Assembly (NCBI GenBank): GCA_903891475.1
Contig: CAITEP010000005.1
Location: 1-64,000 of the forward strand
Source: an uncultured Mucilaginibacter sp.
GTDB lineage: Bacteria; Bacteroidota; Bacteroidia; Sphingobacteriales; Sphingobacteriaceae
DNA length: 64,000 bases
Direction: 5' to 3'
The notes below the pieces were generated by a model. That model saw only the letters and a program-made list of their open reading frames with translations. It was not told the DNA's origin and ran no database searches. Shown here one piece after another: positions 3,106 through 44,474 of the stretch (its first letter is position 1; each line of letters begins with the position of its first letter). The translations under genes were made by a program, and so were the position numbers.

Positions 3106-3167
3106 TCATAAGTTTATTTTTAGGTAACATTAGGTATTGAACTTTCGGACCATAAGCAGGGCTCAAA

Positions 3168-3896
3168 ATGAACAGAGAATATCACAAGTGGTTTAGTCCT
3201 ATCTTGCAGCGCGACATGGAGCTTTTGGTATTTGGACATGCCGGAGCGGCTGTACTGTTTTTCCCAACCCGTATGGCCAGGTTTTATGATTACGAAAACT
3301 GGCGGGTGATTGAAGCACTGGAAAACCGGATAAACAACGGTGAACTACAAATTTTTTGCGTGGATAGCATTGATGTCGAAAGCTTTTATAACACCACCGT
3401 ACACCCCATAGTGCGCATTGCCCGGCACTTGCAATACGAAGAATATATTTTAAATGAGGTACTGCCTTTAATGCGGCATAAAAACAAGGGCAATTATTTT
3501 GAAGTGGCAGGCTGTAGTATGGGCGCGTTTCATGCCTTGAACATTGCCCTGCGCCATCCTTGGATTTTTAACAAAGTGGTTTGTATGAGTGGCCGATATG
3601 ATTTAACCCAACAAATTCAAGACTTTGACGATTTGTTTGATGGTTACCACAACGACCATATTTACTATAATACGCCTATGAAATACGTCCCCAACATGCA
3701 CGATGAGCATGAGTTGGATACCATACGCAAAATGGAAATTATTTTTGCCATTGGCGAAACCGACCCTTTTTTACACAATAACCAAGAATTTAGCAAGCTT
3801 TTATGGCACAAGGGTATACCAAACAACTTATACATTTGGGAGCATTACGCCCACAGGCCACGTTATTGGCGGCAAATGGTGCAATTGTATTTTTAA
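3168..3896 (+). CDS. Putative esterase (alpha/beta hydrolase, esterase-D-like)
   Basis: A 242-aa alpha/beta-hydrolase of the putative esterase family. The nucleophile elbow is GCSMG with Ser about 117, followed by a typical helix (AFHALNIALRHP). The C-terminal EHYAHRPRYWRQ may supply the catalytic His, and IFAIGETDPF a candidate acidic region. No signal peptide is apparent. Members of this group hydrolyse carboxyl esters or thioesters; the substrate here is unknown. It sits between the SGNH hydrolase and icmF on the same strand. Confidence 0.78.
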   Translation: MNREYHKWFSPILQRDMELLVFGHAGAAVLFFPTRMARFYDYENWRVIEALENRINNGELQIFCVDSIDVESFYNTTVHPIVRIARHLQYEEYILNEVLPLMRHKNKGNYFEVAGCSMGAFHALNIALRHPWIFNKVVCMSGRYDLTQQIQDFDDLFDGYHNDHIYYNTPMKYVPNMHDEHELDTIRKMEIIFAIGETDPFLHNNQEFSKLLWHKGIPNNLYIWEHYAHRPRYWRQMVQLYF

Positions 3897-38570: not shown

Positions 38571-38991
38571 ATTAAGTTAAAATTGGTTATTCAAATCAGA
38601 TTTCTCACAAAAGCTTCCTTTTAGCTTGCCAGCAAAGCATAAATCTTGCATGCAAAGACGCTCTTTTTATGTCAGACTAACATTTATTTAAAAGGTTTAA
38701 CGCCTCTAAAAAAAAATTGTTTGTTTTTTTAATACAACGTTTGAAATTATCGAATGGTTGGTTGGGCCTTTTTTATAAATCATTATCATGAAACTTCATA
38801 GCTTGTATAAAAAATATTATTAGAACGCAGCAAATTGTAGAGAAACTATTCTTTTAATTATATAAGAAGCGATTTTATTCTAGCTAAAAAGTAAAAAATC
38901 AAAATGTATTGTCAAAGTATCTTGCCAAATTCAAATTCATTAACATTTTTAAAATTAGCTACATTTATCATTTTATTGTAAACTAATATAT
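38571..38991. other. AT-rich intergenic region upstream of the TetR gene
   Basis: About 420 bp with no credible gene on either strand. It is very AT-rich and contains several A and T runs. The only distinct signal is the TetR operator just to its right. I see no RNA gene or terminator hairpin in it. Confidence 0.5.
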
Positions 38992-39028
38992 ACAGACTTG
39001 TCTGTTCAAAAAATGCAATATATATTTG
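38992..39028 (+). promoter_or_regulatory. tetR promoter with palindromic operator
   Basis: The palindrome ACAGACTTGTCTGT (38992-39005) contains the -33 TTG (38998-39000). Twenty bases later a consensus -7 box TATATTTG (39021-39028) follows. Transcription would begin near 39034, so the protein start is ATG 39049 and not the earlier ATG at 39013. The same 14-bp palindrome occurs upstream of the next operon, which marks it as the repressor's own site. Confidence 0.8.
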
Positions 39029-39048
39029 TTCCATCAAATCAAATTGAT

Positions 39049-39579
39049 ATGGACACCAGAGAAAGAATAGTTGATACCGCCTCCCGCTTGTTTTACCAAC
39101 AAGGCTATAACAGCACCGGTATTAACCAAGTTATAAAAGAGGCTGGCGTAGCAAAAGCAAGCTTGTACCAATACTTTCCATCGAAAGAGGATTTATTGGC
39201 CGAGTATTTAAAAGTAACTGCCTTAGCTACCAATAAAACTTTAAAAGATATGGTGAACAGGTTTGATACGCCTAGAGAAAAAGTATTGGCCATGTTTGAT
39301 TTTTTGTTTGATTACTCAAACGCGAGCGATTTTAACGGTTGTAATTTTTTAAATGTAAATGCCGAACTACCGCGAGAAAATGGACATATCAAAGAGATTA
39401 TCAGGAACCAAAAAAATGAGATTCGCAATTTATTTGCTGGAATTTTGGGCGATTTAAATAAAAATGGCTTGGCGGATGAACTCTACCTGCTTTTTGATGC
39501 CGCCTTAGTTGGTGGTAAGGTTTATGGCGATTTATGGCCCGTAGAAACTACCAAAAGAATAGTGGAGAAATTGATATAA
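39049..39579 (+). CDS. TetR/AcrR-family repressor
   Basis: A 176-aa regulator. The N-terminal helix-turn-helix is canonical (RERIVDTASRLFYQQGYNSTGINQVIKEAGVAKAS...YFPSKEDLLAEYL), and the C-terminal helical ligand-binding domain contains CNFLNVNAELPRE. Start ATG 39049 follows from the promoter position; upstream in-frame starts would lie in the operator or before the transcription start. It probably represses itself and the four-gene operon at 39672-41919 by blocking RNA polymerase at the -33 element. The inducing ligand is unknown; operon content suggests an electrophile or oxidant. Confidence 0.93.
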   Translation: MDTRERIVDTASRLFYQQGYNSTGINQVIKEAGVAKASLYQYFPSKEDLLAEYLKVTALATNKTLKDMVNRFDTPREKVLAMFDFLFDYSNASDFNGCNFLNVNAELPRENGHIKEIIRNQKNEIRNLFAGILGDLNKNGLADELYLLFDAALVGGKVYGDLWPVETTKRIVEKLI

Positions 39580-39597
39580 TTTTTTTATAAATAAAAA

Positions 39598-39635
39598 ACA
39601 GACTTGTCTGTATGTAAAATCAAAAAATACTTTAA
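39598..39635 (+). promoter_or_regulatory. Second TetR operator and promoter of the target operon
   Basis: ACAGACTTGTCTGT at 39598-39611 is identical to the operator ahead of the tetR gene. Its TTG (39604-39606) can serve as -33 box, with TACTTTAA (39628-39635), a poorer -7 match, 21 bp further on. It lies 61 bp ahead of the first gene of the operon. Confidence 0.75.
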
Positions 39636-39671
39636 AACATAAAATAATACACTCTTTAAAAATATATCATC

Positions 39672-40175
39672 ATGACAACAACTTATCAAAATCTGGTATT
39701 ACCAGGTAAACCAACAGCAACAAAAACAATTTTATGGGCCACCTTAATTTCTGGCAGTTTGGATGCCTTAGCAGGTGTTATTGTTTATCTGTCCTTATTT
39801 GGGTACAACCCATTCCAAGTATTACAATCTATTGCAGAAGGCATTTACGGTCCGGCAGCTTTCAAAGGCGGGTTGCTGACTGTATCAGCAGGATTGGTAC
39901 TGCATTATTTTATAGCCTTTGTGGTATCGGTCATCTTCTTCTATGCCTATCCAAAAATTAAAATCTTGAGCAAATACAACGTAGCATCGGGCTTGTTATT
40001 TGGAGCCGCCATTTGGTTGGTGATGAATTTGGTAGTAGTACCATTATCAAACATTCCGGCTACACCTTTTAATCCGCTATTGGCCTTCATAGGCATTAGC
40101 TGGCACATGGTATTGGTTGGTTTACCAATCGCCTTAATTACAAAAGCCTTTTACACCTCAACCGAAAATAAATAA
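39672..40175 (+). CDS. Four-helix membrane protein, unknown function
   Basis: A 167-aa integral membrane protein with four hydrophobic helices (about 20-42, 65-92, 103-125 and 133-158). The first helix region reads TLISGSLDALAGVIVYLSLFG. I recall similar conserved membrane proteins of unknown role in Bacteroidota and Proteobacteria but cannot name a characterised one. As the first gene after the second TetR operator it is probably induced with the AhpD-like, DUF1348 and PNPOx-like genes. Confidence 0.8.
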   Translation: MTTTYQNLVLPGKPTATKTILWATLISGSLDALAGVIVYLSLFGYNPFQVLQSIAEGIYGPAAFKGGLLTVSAGLVLHYFIAFVVSVIFFYAYPKIKILSKYNVASGLLFGAAIWLVMNLVVVPLSNIPATPFNPLLAFIGISWHMVLVGLPIALITKAFYTSTENK

Positions 40176-40261
40176 CAAAAACGCTGCCCCCATCTCTATA
40201 ATTATGGAAATGGAATAATATTAACATCAATACATATTTAAACAAATTAAAAATTAAAAAA

Positions 40262-40810
40262 ATGAAAAATTTCGCAATCCCAACAAAAGAACAAGTATCA
40301 ACTGGTAACCAAGCAATTTTCGAAAATCTGGAAAAAGGCCTAGGCTTTGTACCAAATTTGTATGCCACCTTTGCCTATTCTGATACCGCTTTAGGCAATT
40401 ACATTACCTTTCAAAATGCCAAAAGCTCGTTAAGAGGTAAAGAAAGAGAAGCCATTAACTTAGTGGTTAGTCAGGTAAATGATTGCAGGTATTGCCAAAG
40501 CGCGCATACCGCTATTGGAAAAATGAATGGCTATACCGACGAGCAAATCATCGACCTGCGCAAAGGACATGCCCCCTTTGACGCTAAAATTGATGCATTG
40601 GTAAAATTAGCCAAAGATATTACCATCAATCATGGTCGCCCATCTGCGCAATTGGTTGATAATTTCTTTGCGGCAGGATACAATGAAGGCAATTTGGTTG
40701 ACGTTATTTTGGTAATTGGCGATAAAATTATCAGCAACTACTTAAACAATATTACCAATACCCCCATCGATTTCCCGGTAGCAGTACCATTGGAAACTGT
40801 TGAAGCATAA
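40262..40810 (+). CDS. AhpD-like carboxymuconolactone decarboxylase family protein
   Basis: A 182-aa all-helical protein of the CMD/AhpD family. The redox motif is CRYCQSAH (CxxC plus His), preceded by the conserved Glu of REAINLVVSQ. Such proteins reduce peroxides or act as thiol-disulfide partners. It lies 86 bp after the membrane protein gene and 64 bp before the DUF1348 gene in the TetR-controlled operon, which points to oxidative or electrophile stress. Confidence 0.9.
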   Translation: MKNFAIPTKEQVSTGNQAIFENLEKGLGFVPNLYATFAYSDTALGNYITFQNAKSSLRGKEREAINLVVSQVNDCRYCQSAHTAIGKMNGYTDEQIIDLRKGHAPFDAKIDALVKLAKDITINHGRPSAQLVDNFFAAGYNEGNLVDVILVIGDKIISNYLNNITNTPIDFPVAVPLETVEA

Positions 40811-40832
40811 TTGTTTGTTTTTTTGTGTATCC

Positions 40833-40858
40833 TTAACCGGGGGAATTTCCCCCGGTTA
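40833..40858 (+). terminator. Stem-loop within the TetR-controlled operon
   Basis: The stem AACCGGGGG (40835-40843) pairs with CCCCCGGTT (40849-40857) across AATTT, with possible extra A-T pairs closing the loop. It follows the AhpD-like stop by about 25 bp. The T-run after it is weak, so it may attenuate rather than fully stop transcription into the last two genes. Confidence 0.55.
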
Positions 40859-40874
40859 TTAATTGAAATAAAAG

Positions 40875-41291
40875 ATGGAAACCATTACTCGCCCACCCCT
40901 GCCTCCCTTCACCCTAGAAACCGCCTTGATAAAAGTTCAAGCTGCACAAGATGCCTGGAACACCAAAGACCCTGAACGTGTAGCCTTGGCCTATACCATG
41001 GATACTGAATGGCGCAACCGTACCGAATTTATTAATGGTCGTGAAGAAGTTAAAGCCTTTTTAACCCGTAAATGGAAAAAGGAGCTGCATTATAAATTAA
41101 AAAAAGAACTTTGGGGCTTCCAGGAAAACCGAATGGCCGTCACCTTTCAATACGAGTGGCAAAACCATAGCGGACAATGGTTTCGTAGCTATGGCAACGA
41201 GCTTTGGGAGTTTGATGAAAATGGCCTGATGCGTAAAAGATTGGCCAGCATTAATGATATGGAGATTTTAGAGAGAGATAGGATTTTATAA
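40875..41291 (+). CDS. DUF1348 / NTF2-like protein
   Basis: A 138-aa NTF2-fold protein matching the DUF1348 group: [42 protein letters not shown] and [16 protein letters not shown]. These small cone-shaped proteins bind or convert small hydrophobic molecules; no reaction is established for this group. It is the third gene of the TetR-controlled operon, 16 bp ahead of the flavin-binding-type protein. Confidence 0.88.
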
Positions 41292-41307
41292 TTATAAATT
41301 TTATATC

Positions 41308-41919
41308 ATGGCAAGTAATTATCAATCAATCGCTTTTGGGGAAGAGACCAAAAAATTGCAGGAAAAATACGGCAGCAGGAGTAGCTATGCCAGGGTAGAG
41401 CTAACCAGTTATTATGATGGTTTGACCAAAAACGAAATAGCCTTTATTAGCGAACGCGATGGTTTTTATATAGCCAGCAACGGGCACGATGGCTATCCAT
41501 ATATTCAATACCGTGGCGGCCCGGCAGGTTTTTTGGGGGTAATTGACAATAACACGCTGGGATTTTTAGATTTTCGGGGGAATAAGCAATACATATCAAC
41601 CGGGAATGTAAAAGAGGATGATAAGGTAGCCTTAATGATTATGGATTATGCCCGCAAGGCACGACTAAAAATATATGCCAAAGCCGAGATTATTGATTTA
41701 GGAACAGATGCGGCTTTGGAAGAAAAACTAGCCATTGCAGGTTATAATGCCAAACCCGAAAGAATTATTAAATTACATATCCAAGCCTACGACTGGAACT
41801 GCCCGCAACACATTGTTCAACGTTTTACTATTCCAGAAATTGAAGATGCCTTTGCCGCGCAAAAGGATTATATACAGCAATTAAGGGCAGAAATTGAAAG
41901 ACTTAAAAATGAACACTGA
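41308..41919 (+). CDS. Pyridoxamine-5'-phosphate-oxidase-like flavoprotein
   Basis: A 203-aa protein with a split-barrel FMN-binding fold of the PNPOx-like family: ISERDGFYIASNGHDGYPYIQ, PAGFLGVIDNNTLGFLD and DKVALMIMDYARKARLKIYAKAEII. Such proteins reduce quinones, haem-related compounds or F420-like substrates. The C-terminal 30 residues form a charged helix. It is the last gene of the operon, and its stop codon directly abuts the stop of the convergent DUF6624 gene. Confidence 0.88.
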   Translation: MASNYQSIAFGEETKKLQEKYGSRSSYARVELTSYYDGLTKNEIAFISERDGFYIASNGHDGYPYIQYRGGPAGFLGVIDNNTLGFLDFRGNKQYISTGNVKEDDKVALMIMDYARKARLKIYAKAEIIDLGTDAALEEKLAIAGYNAKPERIIKLHIQAYDWNCPQHIVQRFTIPEIEDAFAAQKDYIQQLRAEIERLKNEH

Positions 41920-42513
41920 CTAATGTTGTTCAAATAGTTTTAAGTATTCTTTTAAAGACTGTAAACCCACCGATTTGCGCAAAGAATCAACATGTATTGA
42001 ATCCCGCATTGGCAAAGTCTTGGTAATATGTGTAATTGGGTCGGTTATTAGTTGTGTACCATAAATTTGTTTTTGTCCAGTATTTACTAAAACCCTGTCT
42101 TGTAGCAAGGCGAAATCCTCGCCAGATGCATTTTGACGTTTTACCTGTTTTGCCATTAATAACAATACCTTTTGCTGAAAGGCTATATCGTCATCACAAT
42201 GTTGTACAATCGCCCAAAAACTATCACTGCCCTTCTCGCCAACCAAATTATATCCAGGGTAGCCATATTTTTTTACAATTAATTTGGCAGCAATCATATT
42301 TAAACTATCGGCGATTGACATGTTGTTATAAATGGTATTTTCATCATAAACCGACTTTTTACCATCTTGTAGTTTCAACGCCTCAATTCTCCATTTTTGA
42401 TCTGTTTTAAACATAGCTAAAATTTTATGTTGCAGCTTATAGTTTATTTTGGTTTGAGAAAAGGCAATGGAGTTTAGAATTAGGAATAAGGAAATATTAA
42501 GGAGAATTTTCAT
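41920..42513 (-). CDS. Exported DUF6624-like protein
   Basis: A 197-aa protein with a signal peptide (MKILLNISLFLILNSIAFSQ). The C-terminal half has a pattern I associate with DUF6624: KYGYPGYNLVGEKGSDSFWAIVQHCDDDIAFQQKVL and ALLQDRVLVNTGQKQIYGTQL. No function is known for these proteins. It is convergent with the preceding operon with no spacer, so its transcript must overlap the opposite strand. Confidence 0.78.
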   Translation of the reverse strand: MKILLNISLFLILNSIAFSQTKINYKLQHKILAMFKTDQKWRIEALKLQDGKKSVYDENTIYNNMSIADSLNMIAAKLIVKKYGYPGYNLVGEKGSDSFWAIVQHCDDDIAFQQKVLLLMAKQVKRQNASGEDFALLQDRVLVNTGQKQIYGTQLITDPITHITKTLPMRDSIHVDSLRKSVGLQSLKEYLKLFEQH

Positions 42514-42692
42514 GGTTTTAAGGTTTAATTATCTGTTGCCTAATTTACCGTTTTAAAAACACAGTTTACCCAAATTGAAAATGAAGGTTGTGTTTATTGT
42601 TTTTTTCATTAAAACATCAAAAATAAAAACACTTTTAACTTTATAATAATGGTTTTCAAGATTTAGTATATATAGTAAGAATGCTAAACAAT

Positions 42693-42739: not shown

Positions 42740-43459
42740 ATGGATAATTTTGTTTTAATGTTTAGTGCTCGTCAAATAAGCTCTAAAATACATCATCATC
42801 TCGCCTTACAAATTGTATTTACTACTCATATCCCATTTAATTCAGTTATAGCAGGTATGGAATACGAAAAAATTTATGGATTTATGGTAAAGCCCAATAT
42901 TACACATGCATGTACCGTTACTGAAGGTGAGCTAAACATTATAAACATTGAACCTTACTCTACTACAGGTAAATTTATAAATCAAATGTTCTCTCAAGGA
43001 AATGACGTTATTGTATTTGAAACTAAACAAGAATTTCAACACCATTTTGATTTGAATAAAACAGATATTTTAAATTCATTGCACCAAAAAATAAATACCT
43101 ATTCAAACTTACCAAAACAGGATAGTAGAATGTTAAAAGTGATTGATTACTTGAATCAAAACTTTCATCTTCAAAACTTAAATCCTCACTTTTTATCACA
43201 AATGATTAATTTATCCTCATCCCGATTTTCGGTTTTGTTTAAAGAATATACTGGTGCCAGTCTTTCGAGGTATCTATTATGGTTAAGACTAAGGAAGGCA
43301 ATAAACTTGTCGCTGCTTGAAAAAGGATTATCATTAACTAACATTGCAATTGAGGCCGGGTTTTATGATTTACCTCAATTAAATAAATACATGAAGGAAA
43401 TGATAGGTGTACCCCCCCAAATTTTTAAACAATACAGTAACCTGATACAAGCTTATTAA
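42740..43459 (+). CDS. AraC-family transcriptional regulator
   Basis: A 239-aa protein. The C-terminal about 100 residues carry two helix-turn-helix units: LNPHFLSQMINLSSSRFSVLFKEYTGASLSRYLLWLRLRKA and LTNIAIEAGFYDLPQLNKYMKEMIGVPPQIFKQ. The N-terminal part is a small sensor-like domain of unknown ligand. Gene and neighbour (43536) are AT-rich compared with the rest of the window. It probably controls the oxidoreductase gene 76 bp downstream on the same strand (inference). Confidence 0.88.
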   Translation: MDNFVLMFSARQISSKIHHHLALQIVFTTHIPFNSVIAGMEYEKIYGFMVKPNITHACTVTEGELNIINIEPYSTTGKFINQMFSQGNDVIVFETKQEFQHHFDLNKTDILNSLHQKINTYSNLPKQDSRMLKVIDYLNQNFHLQNLNPHFLSQMINLSSSRFSVLFKEYTGASLSRYLLWLRLRKAINLSLLEKGLSLTNIAIEAGFYDLPQLNKYMKEMIGVPPQIFKQYSNLIQAY

Positions 43460-43535
43460 TACTAAACCTTTTAAATTGCATTTCTTGTTGTTTTCAAAAA
43501 CAGATATAAATCATATATTTTAAATTGGGAGAAAA

Positions 43536-44474
43536 ATGAAAATTGTATCGTACAATAGCTTTGGCGGAATTGAGAAATTAGGCCTCACAGAACTTAATAA
43601 GCCGGAACCATTAGCAGATGAAGTTTTAATAAAAATAAAAGCAGTTTCTATAAATCCGCTAGATTGGAAGATAAGGAAGGGTGAAATGAAACTGATGTCG
43701 GGAAGTAAGTTTCCTAAAAAAATAGGGATAGATTTTTCAGGCAGCGTAGAGAAAGTTGGACCAAAGGTAACCTTATTTAAAAATGAAGATCTTGTTTTTG
43801 GCGCAGTAAATGGAATGAAGGAGGGCGCATTAGGTGAGTATGTTATTGTAAAGGAAAGTCAACTATTCCAAAAGCCTGAAAACTTGAGTTTTTCTCAAGC
43901 AGCTTCCATACCAGTGGTAGGTGCTGGCGCATTTGATGCCATCTATAATTTAGGCAAAGTAAAAGCAGGGAAACAAGTTTTAATAAACGGGGCTACGGGA
44001 GGGATGGGTATGTTTGCCCTACAGCTAGCAAAACAGGCTGGGGCAATTGTAACTGCTGTAGCCAATACTGATGGAATTAAATTAGCGTTGGATTGGGGTG
44101 CCGACCAAGTAATTGATTATACTAAAATAAACATCATAGAAACTGAAAAAAAATTCGATGTTATTTTTGATTTATCAGGTAGATTAAATTTTAAAAATAC
44201 AAAATTAATACTTACTAAAAATGGCATCTTCATTAATCCTATACCGGTTCCGGTGCAAATAATTACCTCCGCAATAGCAAATATTTTTAGTGTACAAAAA
44301 AATAAAATTCTATTATCTGCTGTGAATAAAGTTGCAATGGATGGAATATTGGCAGCCGTAAAAAAGGGTTTAAAAATAGAAGTTAGTAAAACATTTCCGT
44401 TCGATGATTTTAAAAAGGCCTATGAATATTGTGAAAAAGGAAAGTATTTTGGTAAGGTTACTATTGAGTTATAG
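43536..44474 (+). CDS. Zinc-independent MDR-family NAD(P)-dependent oxidoreductase (quinone-reductase type)
   Basis: A 312-aa medium-chain dehydrogenase/reductase. GroES-like N-terminal part (DEVLIKIKAVSINPLDWKIRKG), IGIDFSGSVEKVG, and the nucleotide fold with GATGGMGMFALQLAKQAGA. The zinc-binding cysteines of alcohol dehydrogenases are missing, which places it with the quinone oxidoreductase-like branch. It likely reduces alpha,beta-unsaturated carbonyls or quinones with NAD(P)H. It follows an AraC-type regulator that may control it. Confidence 0.88.
   Translation: MKIVSYNSFGGIEKLGLTELNKPEPLADEVLIKIKAVSINPLDWKIRKGEMKLMSGSKFPKKIGIDFSGSVEKVGPKVTLFKNEDLVFGAVNGMKEGALGEYVIVKESQLFQKPENLSFSQAASIPVVGAGAFDAIYNLGKVKAGKQVLINGATGGMGMFALQLAKQAGAIVTAVANTDGIKLALDWGADQVIDYTKINIIETEKKFDVIFDLSGRLNFKNTKLILTKNGIFINPIPVPVQIITSAIANIFSVQKNKILLSAVNKVAMDGILAAVKKGLKIEVSKTFPFDDFKKAYEYCEKGKYFGKVTIEL

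Follow-up and report, generated by a model that had tools for sequence, protein, structure and literature searches.

A second operator and a conserved T-run behind a NemR-like tetR gene suggest a repressor-gated terminator in Bacteroidota

We analysed a 64,000-nucleotide stretch of DNA from an uncultured Mucilaginibacter sp. (contig CAITEP010000005.1, positions 1 to 64,000 of the forward strand), referred to here as the window. It contains a locus in which two identical operators, spaced about 606 bp from each other, lie on either side of a gene for a TetR-family repressor, tetR, which is followed by four further genes on the same strand (Table 1). Operator 2 begins 18 bp 3′ of the tetR stop codon, a position of the kind occupied by LacI O3, and is preceded by a run of T's that is the main subject of this analysis; the gap from operator 2 to the next start codon is 60 bp. 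Open reading frames (ORFs) were assigned with a simple rule that takes the longest one, and distances to next starts are approximate.

Table 1. Features of the tetR locus, in coordinates of the window
Feature	Position	Strand	Remarks
Operator 1	38992..39005	+	ACAGACTTGTCTGT; overlaps the −33 box of the tetR promoter
Predicted −33 element TTG, within operator 1	38998..39000	+	Centre tied to −7 spacing in relatives
Predicted −7 element TATATTTG	39021..39028	+	Consensus TAnnTTTG (PMC9723704, accessible text)
tetR, 176 aa, NemR-like TetR repressor	39049..39579	+	Cys98 the sole cysteine; Lys157 aligned with NemR Lys175
tetR stop codon TAA	39577-39579	+	
T7 run immediately 3′ of the tetR stop	39580..39586	+	Predicted RNA 3′-end site with operator 2 occupied
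11-bp spacer, T-run to operator 2	39587..39597	+	
Operator 2	39598..39611	+	ACAGACTTGTCTGT; interpreted as a roadblock site, not a promoter operator
Small multi-helix membrane protein, weakly DUF1440-like	39672..40175	+	Helices by eye; below Pfam cut-off
Carboxymuconolactone decarboxylase (CMD)/AhpD-like protein with C-x-x-C	40262..40810	+	Pfam
DUF1348 (NTF2/SnoaL-like) protein	40875..41291	+	Pfam
PNPOx-like flavoprotein	41308..41919	+	Pfam

An original prediction, made from the sequence, had drawn attention to the pair of identical 14-bp sites, and ACAGACTTGTCTGT is indeed found exactly at both. The genome scan that it proposed for further palindromes returned exactly two exact copies in 3.96 Mb (52 contigs), both at this locus, and exact ACAGACNNGTCTGT likewise has two genome copies only, at the same two sites. 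A single one-mismatch site (C16:13498) lies near the 3′ end of a 474-aa ORF, outside any promoter; judged by eye, the ORF encodes a major-facilitator transporter. Genome matches with up to two mismatches were not enriched (31/31 versus 34/34 for a reversed control pattern). With exact sites at this locus alone and the sole one-mismatch site coding, the idea of a larger regulon was dropped.

For comparison we used the best 80 relative loci from a GTDB contig scan, all from Bacteroidota by their titles. All loci share descent within this one phylum, and Fisher values therefore overstate the significance of differences among them. The regulator itself is uncommon, being found in 14 of 201 family genomes (E 1e-20) and 13 of 395 class genomes (E 1e-30), with the window's genome included in both counts. 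Upstream of tetR, the operator arms ACAGAC/GTCTGT are present with 0, 1, 2 or 3 mismatches in 45, 15, 15 and 5 of the 80 loci, respectively. An upstream operator with at most two arm mismatches is thus found in 75 of the 80 relatives, as compared to 0.7% of 3,010 control stretches of 155 bp, and the remaining five loci (three mismatches) have TAGAC-N6-GTCTA upstream of tetR instead. Because it is conserved upstream of tetR and rare in controls, the palindrome is almost certainly the operator of this TetR protein.

The proposal that the −33 box of the repressor's own promoter lies within operator 1, making tetR autoregulated, is supported by the geometry of the relatives. In the window the central TTG fits a −33 element and is followed 20 bp later by a perfect −7 element, the only perfect match on the plus strand across 38600-41950 to TAnnTTTG, which the accessible text of PMC9723704 gives as the −7 consensus of flavobacterial sigma A. 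Of the upstream sites with no more than one mismatch, 61 when the window's is included, 55 have a perfect −7 lying 14-21 bp behind the operator, as against 0.9% in shuffles. Among upstream sites with a perfect −7, the operator centre is TTG in 34 of 55 cases at an offset of 12-18 bp, as opposed to none of the 16 with an offset of 19-22 bp. A palindrome alone would be indifferent to this spacing, so the dependence of the TTG centre on it argues that site 1 does cover a −33 box. The 16 upstream operators with the −7 box 19-22 bp behind (L031, L033, L034, L054 and twelve others) all lack a TTG centre, and in these the promoter seems to be displaced with respect to the operator, by about 5 bp.

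Downstream of tetR the arrangement is different. The tetR stop codon, six to nine T's, a spacer mostly of 11-12 bp and the operator form a conserved unit (39577-39611 in the window). A run of at least six T's lies near the tetR stop in 27 of 34 loci with an operator no more than 70 nt from the stop (window included) but in only 2 of 47 loci without such an operator, and near 33 of 755 other stops in the same loci. The group of 47 includes L026 and four Chitinophaga loci, in which the downstream operator is farther off or diverged, and one of its two members with at least six T's, L064, is one of these Chitinophaga loci. When position is counted from the operator, at least six T's occur at −22 to −9 in 32 of 44 downstream sites, compared with 4 of the 82 upstream ones (Fisher P = 9e-16, uncorrected for kinship). 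The 44 downstream sites are made up of 35 from the contig loci and the window together (28 with such a run) and nine from loci added later, selected for having a downstream operator (four with such a run); the operator of one of the nine, L014, was placed by hand, and L008 and L045 are the same locus, of which L045 alone was counted. At these 44 sites a perfect −7 and a T-tract are mutually exclusive, with 32 having the T-tract only, 5 the promoter element only, 7 neither and none both.

T-tract sites occur in 12 of 18 regulator clusters defined at 60% identity (12 of 18-20 if L116 and L119 add clusters without at least six T's), and across 13 cluster representatives T occupies positions −18 to −13 with a frequency of 85-100%, which corresponds in place to the T-rich element about 15 bp upstream of the roadblock site in RNA polymerase I (Pol I) terminators. 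The L026 stop codon lies some 100 nt farther off, and the T-run there is still 12 bp from the operator; a third operator in L045, behind a hydrolase gene, is preceded by A7T3 at 12 bp; and in L014 the operator ATAGACTATTCTAT is preceded by T8 at 12 bp, with an ATG 3 bp behind the operator. The four Chitinophaga loci (L055, L064, L075 and L087) have the operator TAGAC-N6-GTCTA both upstream and downstream of tetR. Their T-runs (T7, T6, T5 and T7) stop short of the dyad centre by 17, 18, 19 and 17 bp, respectively, close to the 18-19 bp seen in 24 of 32 sites of the main clade. Thus the spacing has been roughly kept despite the change of operator.

We rejected the idea that such runs are common behind tetR genes at large: for other TetR genes, at least six T's within 22 nt of the stop were found in 0 of 17 delimited loci; these came from 31 loci (L121-L151) of this genome and its relatives, including at least one ortholog (L126), and the other 14 were dropped. 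A phylum-wide search for TTTTTT-N8-15-operator gave matches in 3 of 395 genomes, namely the window's own and two (G220 and G224) in which the match was the upstream site of the same regulator, and this search neither extends the T-run finding nor excludes such units elsewhere. Further loci of the Chitinophaga type were sought in a low-information search that found them in 1 of 395 genomes (the L111 regulator, already in the set) and 0 of 13.

The nature of the repressor bears on what might open such a system. TetR family membership is clear from PF00440 (65.6 bits against a cut-off of 24) and from an all-helical structure model with a confident TetR fold (pLDDT 95.2). NemR (PDB 4yze) had the lowest Foldseek E-value in the PDB, with a VIA Z of 20.7 and a root-mean-square deviation of 2.0 over 175 residues; by VIA Z, SCO4454 ranks above it (22.8) and several other TetR proteins are level with it. 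Among the structural matches are structures of CifR, an epoxide-sensing cysteine repressor found beside an alpha/beta hydrolase. In a profile alignment to 4yze, the chain numbering of which we take to be offset by two relative to NemR, Cys98, the sole cysteine, falls in the column of NemR Cys106, as expected of a cysteine sensor, and it is kept in 88 of 88 usable sequences (of 90 rows, 2 were mis-extracted). Lys157 in the window falls in the column of NemR Lys175, but this position is Lys in just 33 and Gln in 47 of the 88 relatives, so that a lysine partner is not a group-wide feature.

According to the accessible text of PMC7464077, NemR relies on Cys106-Lys175 chemistry and its electrophile response involves Cys21 and Cys116; the window's protein has Cys98 only, and no old yellow enzyme or glyoxalase, the products expected of nemA and gloA targets, is encoded among the genes of 39049-41919. 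In AltR of Pantoea ananatis, Cys100 is needed for the thiosulfinate response, and the accessible part of the source reports no response to N-ethylmaleimide, diamide or H2O2 (PMC13178969). As AltR ignores these compounds despite its cysteine, the inducer is not predictable from the cysteine alone. The claim of the original prediction that the repressor releases on an electrophile or oxidant and so controls a detoxification system holds in outline, in that a NemR-type sensor and detoxification-like genes appear to be present and an electrophile or oxidant may be the inducer.

TetR-family repressors act as dimers. We propose, with a probability that we put at roughly 0.55, that one NemR-like TetR repressor works two gates in what is a single, autoregulated stress operon. 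At the first gate, a dimer on operator 1 would cover the −33 element and block initiation for tetR and for the genes reached by read-through. At the second, a dimer on operator 2 would obstruct polymerases that got past the first. A polymerase stalled there should have its RNA 3′ end within the T-run, some 15 bp short of the operator and near 39583, which is the centre of T7, and the weak U:A hybrid would promote backtracking and release, so that the transcript ends just 3′ of the tetR stop. The outcome would be basal repressor synthesis with the effector genes off. Modification of Cys98 by an electrophile or oxidant would then take the repressor off both sites and permit read-through, leaving the effector genes under two gates in series and tetR under one. 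The sequence itself shows the operators and their conservation, the site 1 promoter, the T-run with its spacing, the absence of any recognisable site 2 promoter and the sole conserved cysteine, whereas DNA binding, stalling, termination, inducer class and effector function are inferred.

Several observations weigh against this model. Among the nine loci added later just four have at least six T's, and since L014 was chosen for its T-run the count over all downstream sites without it is 31 of 43; another added locus, L109, is probably from the same species as L049. Twelve of the 44 downstream sites lack a run of at least six T's, five having a −7 instead and seven having neither. Of these seven, four (L032, L072, L116 and L119) carry A6-7T3-4 and a fifth, L112, carries T5, the tract ending 11-13 bp from the operator, and in L111 and L019 nothing resembling a T-run precedes the downstream operator. 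Runs of at least six T's are also present in 4 of the 82 upstream sites, operator 2 of the window also has a similarly spaced T6 on the opposite strand, and the whole comparison is among loci related by ancestry.

Structure in the RNA also fits the model poorly. An RNA hairpin is necessary for Pol I release, according to the accessible text of PMC12366685. In the window, however, the 30 nt before the T-run fold at −0.4 kcal/mol, well short of a Pol I-like hairpin, and most relatives have no stable hairpin (−7 kcal/mol or below in 4 of 32, and in 1 of the 46 regulators that lack operator 2). When 19 sequences were folded to a consensus, the operator palindrome alone emerged, without covariation and with no consensus hairpin, and the mean z with the T-run included in the fold was −0.09. 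The stretch before the T-run is nonetheless somewhat more structured than in 46 controls (mean −3.0 versus −1.05 kcal/mol; mean z −0.64 versus −0.05).

This last difference is what might be expected if the T-run were the U-tract of a leaky intrinsic terminator that acts independently of the repressor, with operator 2 adding separate repression. Average structure above that of regulators without operator 2 would favour such a terminator, as would the small GC hairpin (−6.1 to −9.0 kcal/mol) that precedes the T-run in L055, L064, L075 and L087, and the hairpins that some other loci, L065 and L041 for example, have within the 3′ end of tetR. We nevertheless regard it as unlikely. The lack of a stable hairpin in most loci, the window among them, speaks against it, and a weak autonomous terminator would leave unexplained the tie between T-run and operator, which is seen both in the way that the T-run tracks the downstream operator (27/34 versus 2/47) and in the nearly constant distance between the two. 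In the absence of a general hairpin across loci, an intrinsic terminator was rejected as the general cause of the T-run. A terminator scan of 38600-42600 found one terminator-like site, on the other strand (39705-39693). The Chitinophaga hairpin loci are a natural variant that bears on the role of the hairpin.

Quite unlikely, in our view, is the second promoter of the original prediction, in which operator 2 covers the −33 element of a separate effector promoter and the repressor blocks initiation there. No TAnnTTTG with at least 5/6 matches lies behind operator 2 up to 39680, the best −7-like sequence being TACTTTAA (4/6), although a TTG is present in operator 2 too, the gap to the next start in the window is 60 bp, and five relatives (L035, L036, L038, L051 and L059) do have a perfect −7 behind the downstream operator. 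A TTG/−7 pair within −60 to +75 bp occurs in 0 of 32 T-tract sites versus 39 of 82 upstream sites, and a perfect −7 at promoter offset in 4 of 40 non-upstream sites having no more than one mismatch (37 downstream of tetR, 2 upstream of a neighbouring gene, and that of the window). For 26 T-tract loci a next ORF was called, and in 8 of them it begins 0-26 bp after the operator. In L045, L027, L040, L056, L024 and L025 the gap is 0, 5, 13, 15, 16 and 16 bp, respectively, and a promoter with its −33 in that operator could therefore not serve that gene. Such a promoter would also leave the T-run unexplained. We ruled against it, the tetR −7 being the sole perfect one in the region scanned. Thus, of the claim that the repressor blocks both promoters, the part concerning site 1 is supported and the part concerning site 2, where there is no −7, is not; the earlier reading of site 2 is probably wrong, and the account was incomplete in having missed the T-run. 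Three Dyadobacter loci (L035, L036 and L038) carry another TetR gene belonging to the same cluster, preceded by an operator of its own with a perfect −7 and followed by a third operator and a hydrolase gene.

The two identical sites flanking tetR could also be bridged by a DNA loop, with the A/T tract serving as a bending element beside operator 2, and the A6-7T3-4 that replaces T7 at some sites would bend DNA too. However, the tract is mostly missing at upstream operators, and the distance between operators changes with tetR length. To our knowledge TetR-family repressors are not known as loop formers, and we consider a loop very unlikely.

Returning to the genes that the two gates would control, the gene list of the original prediction is largely borne out. 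TetR_N, CMD (with C-x-x-C), DUF1348 and PNPOx_N all score above their Pfam cut-offs in the window proteins, whereas the membrane protein is merely DUF1440-like (19.1 bits against a cut-off of 34.7). By single-linkage clusters in the stretches retrieved around the regulator, counted on either strand, DUF1348 is present in 41 of 81 loci (window included), CMD in 16, alpha/beta hydrolase in 11, PNPOx in 11 and a DUF1440-like protein in 6. Further clusters have representatives that match OsmC, SelR/MsrB, DUF302, SDR, DoxX (barely above cut-off) and GNAT. Cercosporin resistance was the subject of work on a fungal DUF1348 protein, by the accessible text of PMC4608573. The effector set fits protection against reactive compounds.

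Some details of gene arrangement are recorded alongside. In L022 (5550-6519), the closest relative with a 96% identical regulator, operator 2 is followed by an additional gene, for an alpha/beta hydrolase, and by a third operator before the DUF1440-like gene, and the window lacks both; this insertion between operator 2 and the membrane-protein gene suggests that the first effector gene is exchangeable. In two relatives that have a TetR-DUF1348 pair (L010:3124-3519 and L009, reverse complement 3111-3513) an old-yellow-enzyme-like protein, identified by eye, is encoded further downstream, an arrangement that recalls nemR-nemA. Within the operon of the window, a strong hairpin (−17.2 kcal/mol) without a long T-run behind it lies between the CMD and DUF1348 genes at 40836-40856, possibly a partial terminator or processing site. 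Downstream of the operon, at 42740-44474, an AraC-type regulator gene is followed by a zinc-type alcohol dehydrogenase-like gene, without this operator.

Protein roadblocks are already known in bacteria; to these the present analysis adds a conserved T-run at a near-fixed distance before a repressor site. That its spacing was kept despite a change of operator suggests that evolution has built a release signal into the DNA. As a hypothesis, the repressor-gated terminator has good comparative support. A wider and more tentative proposal, which we hold at somewhat less than even odds, is that Bacteroidota use a ligand-switched, Pol I-like terminator in which the operator lies one polymerase length behind the T-run, the same repressor gates initiation and termination, and the unit of stop codon, T-run, spacer and operator moves as a module before different detoxification genes. 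If true, it would provide a compact inducible terminator part; it also cautions that intergenic operators need not mark promoters. We found no description of a T-run at a fixed distance from a bacterial repressor site in the accessible text of the open-access literature searched, and searches there joining TetR with CMD/DUF1348, or a roadblock with a T-tract or U-tract, returned nothing.

As a sensor, the window's protein shares with NemR of Escherichia coli the arrangement of an autoregulatory TetR repressor ahead of its targets and the filled Cys106 and Lys175 columns, but identity is about 22-24%, the other NemR cysteines are missing and the operon holds no nemA or gloA. AltR is likewise NemR-like, with one essential cysteine (Cys100) and with inverted-repeat operators at its own promoter and inside its cluster; its operators differ (CAATCTAC-N6-GTAGATTG and possibly TTACCAAC-N6-GTTGGTAA), and the accessible part of PMC13178969 does not describe a T-run or roadblock layout.

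For the second gate, the nearest bacterial counterparts are LacI, which roadblocks lacI transcription at O3 (PMC3711431), and YtgR, which ends trpR transcripts before trpB in the Chlamydia trpRBA operon (PMC6504234). In both, as proposed here, a repressor bound where a regulator gene ends, or beyond that point, stops transcripts from an upstream promoter. By the accessible text of these sources, O3 truncates lacI itself, YtgR is not encoded by the preceding gene, and a fixed-spacing T-run is described for neither. Release of polymerase at bacterial roadblocks is partly understood: Mfd acts as a release factor (PMC10310618; PMC4132739), and the accessible part of PMC10310618 leaves the role of Rho unclear. 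The closest likeness in layout is to the eukaryotic Pol I terminators bound by Reb1, Nsi1 or TTF1. Yeast Pol I stops 15 bp upstream of the Reb1 site, within a T-rich element, and roadblock and T-rich element together drive backtracking toward an RNA hairpin, where release happens (PMC12366685, accessible text). The present system would use a bacterial polymerase and a ligand-controlled repressor, mostly with no stable hairpin, and we draw an analogy of layout without claiming homology; what the two have in common is a T-rich element about 15 bp upstream of a roadblock, represented here by the T's at −18 to −13.

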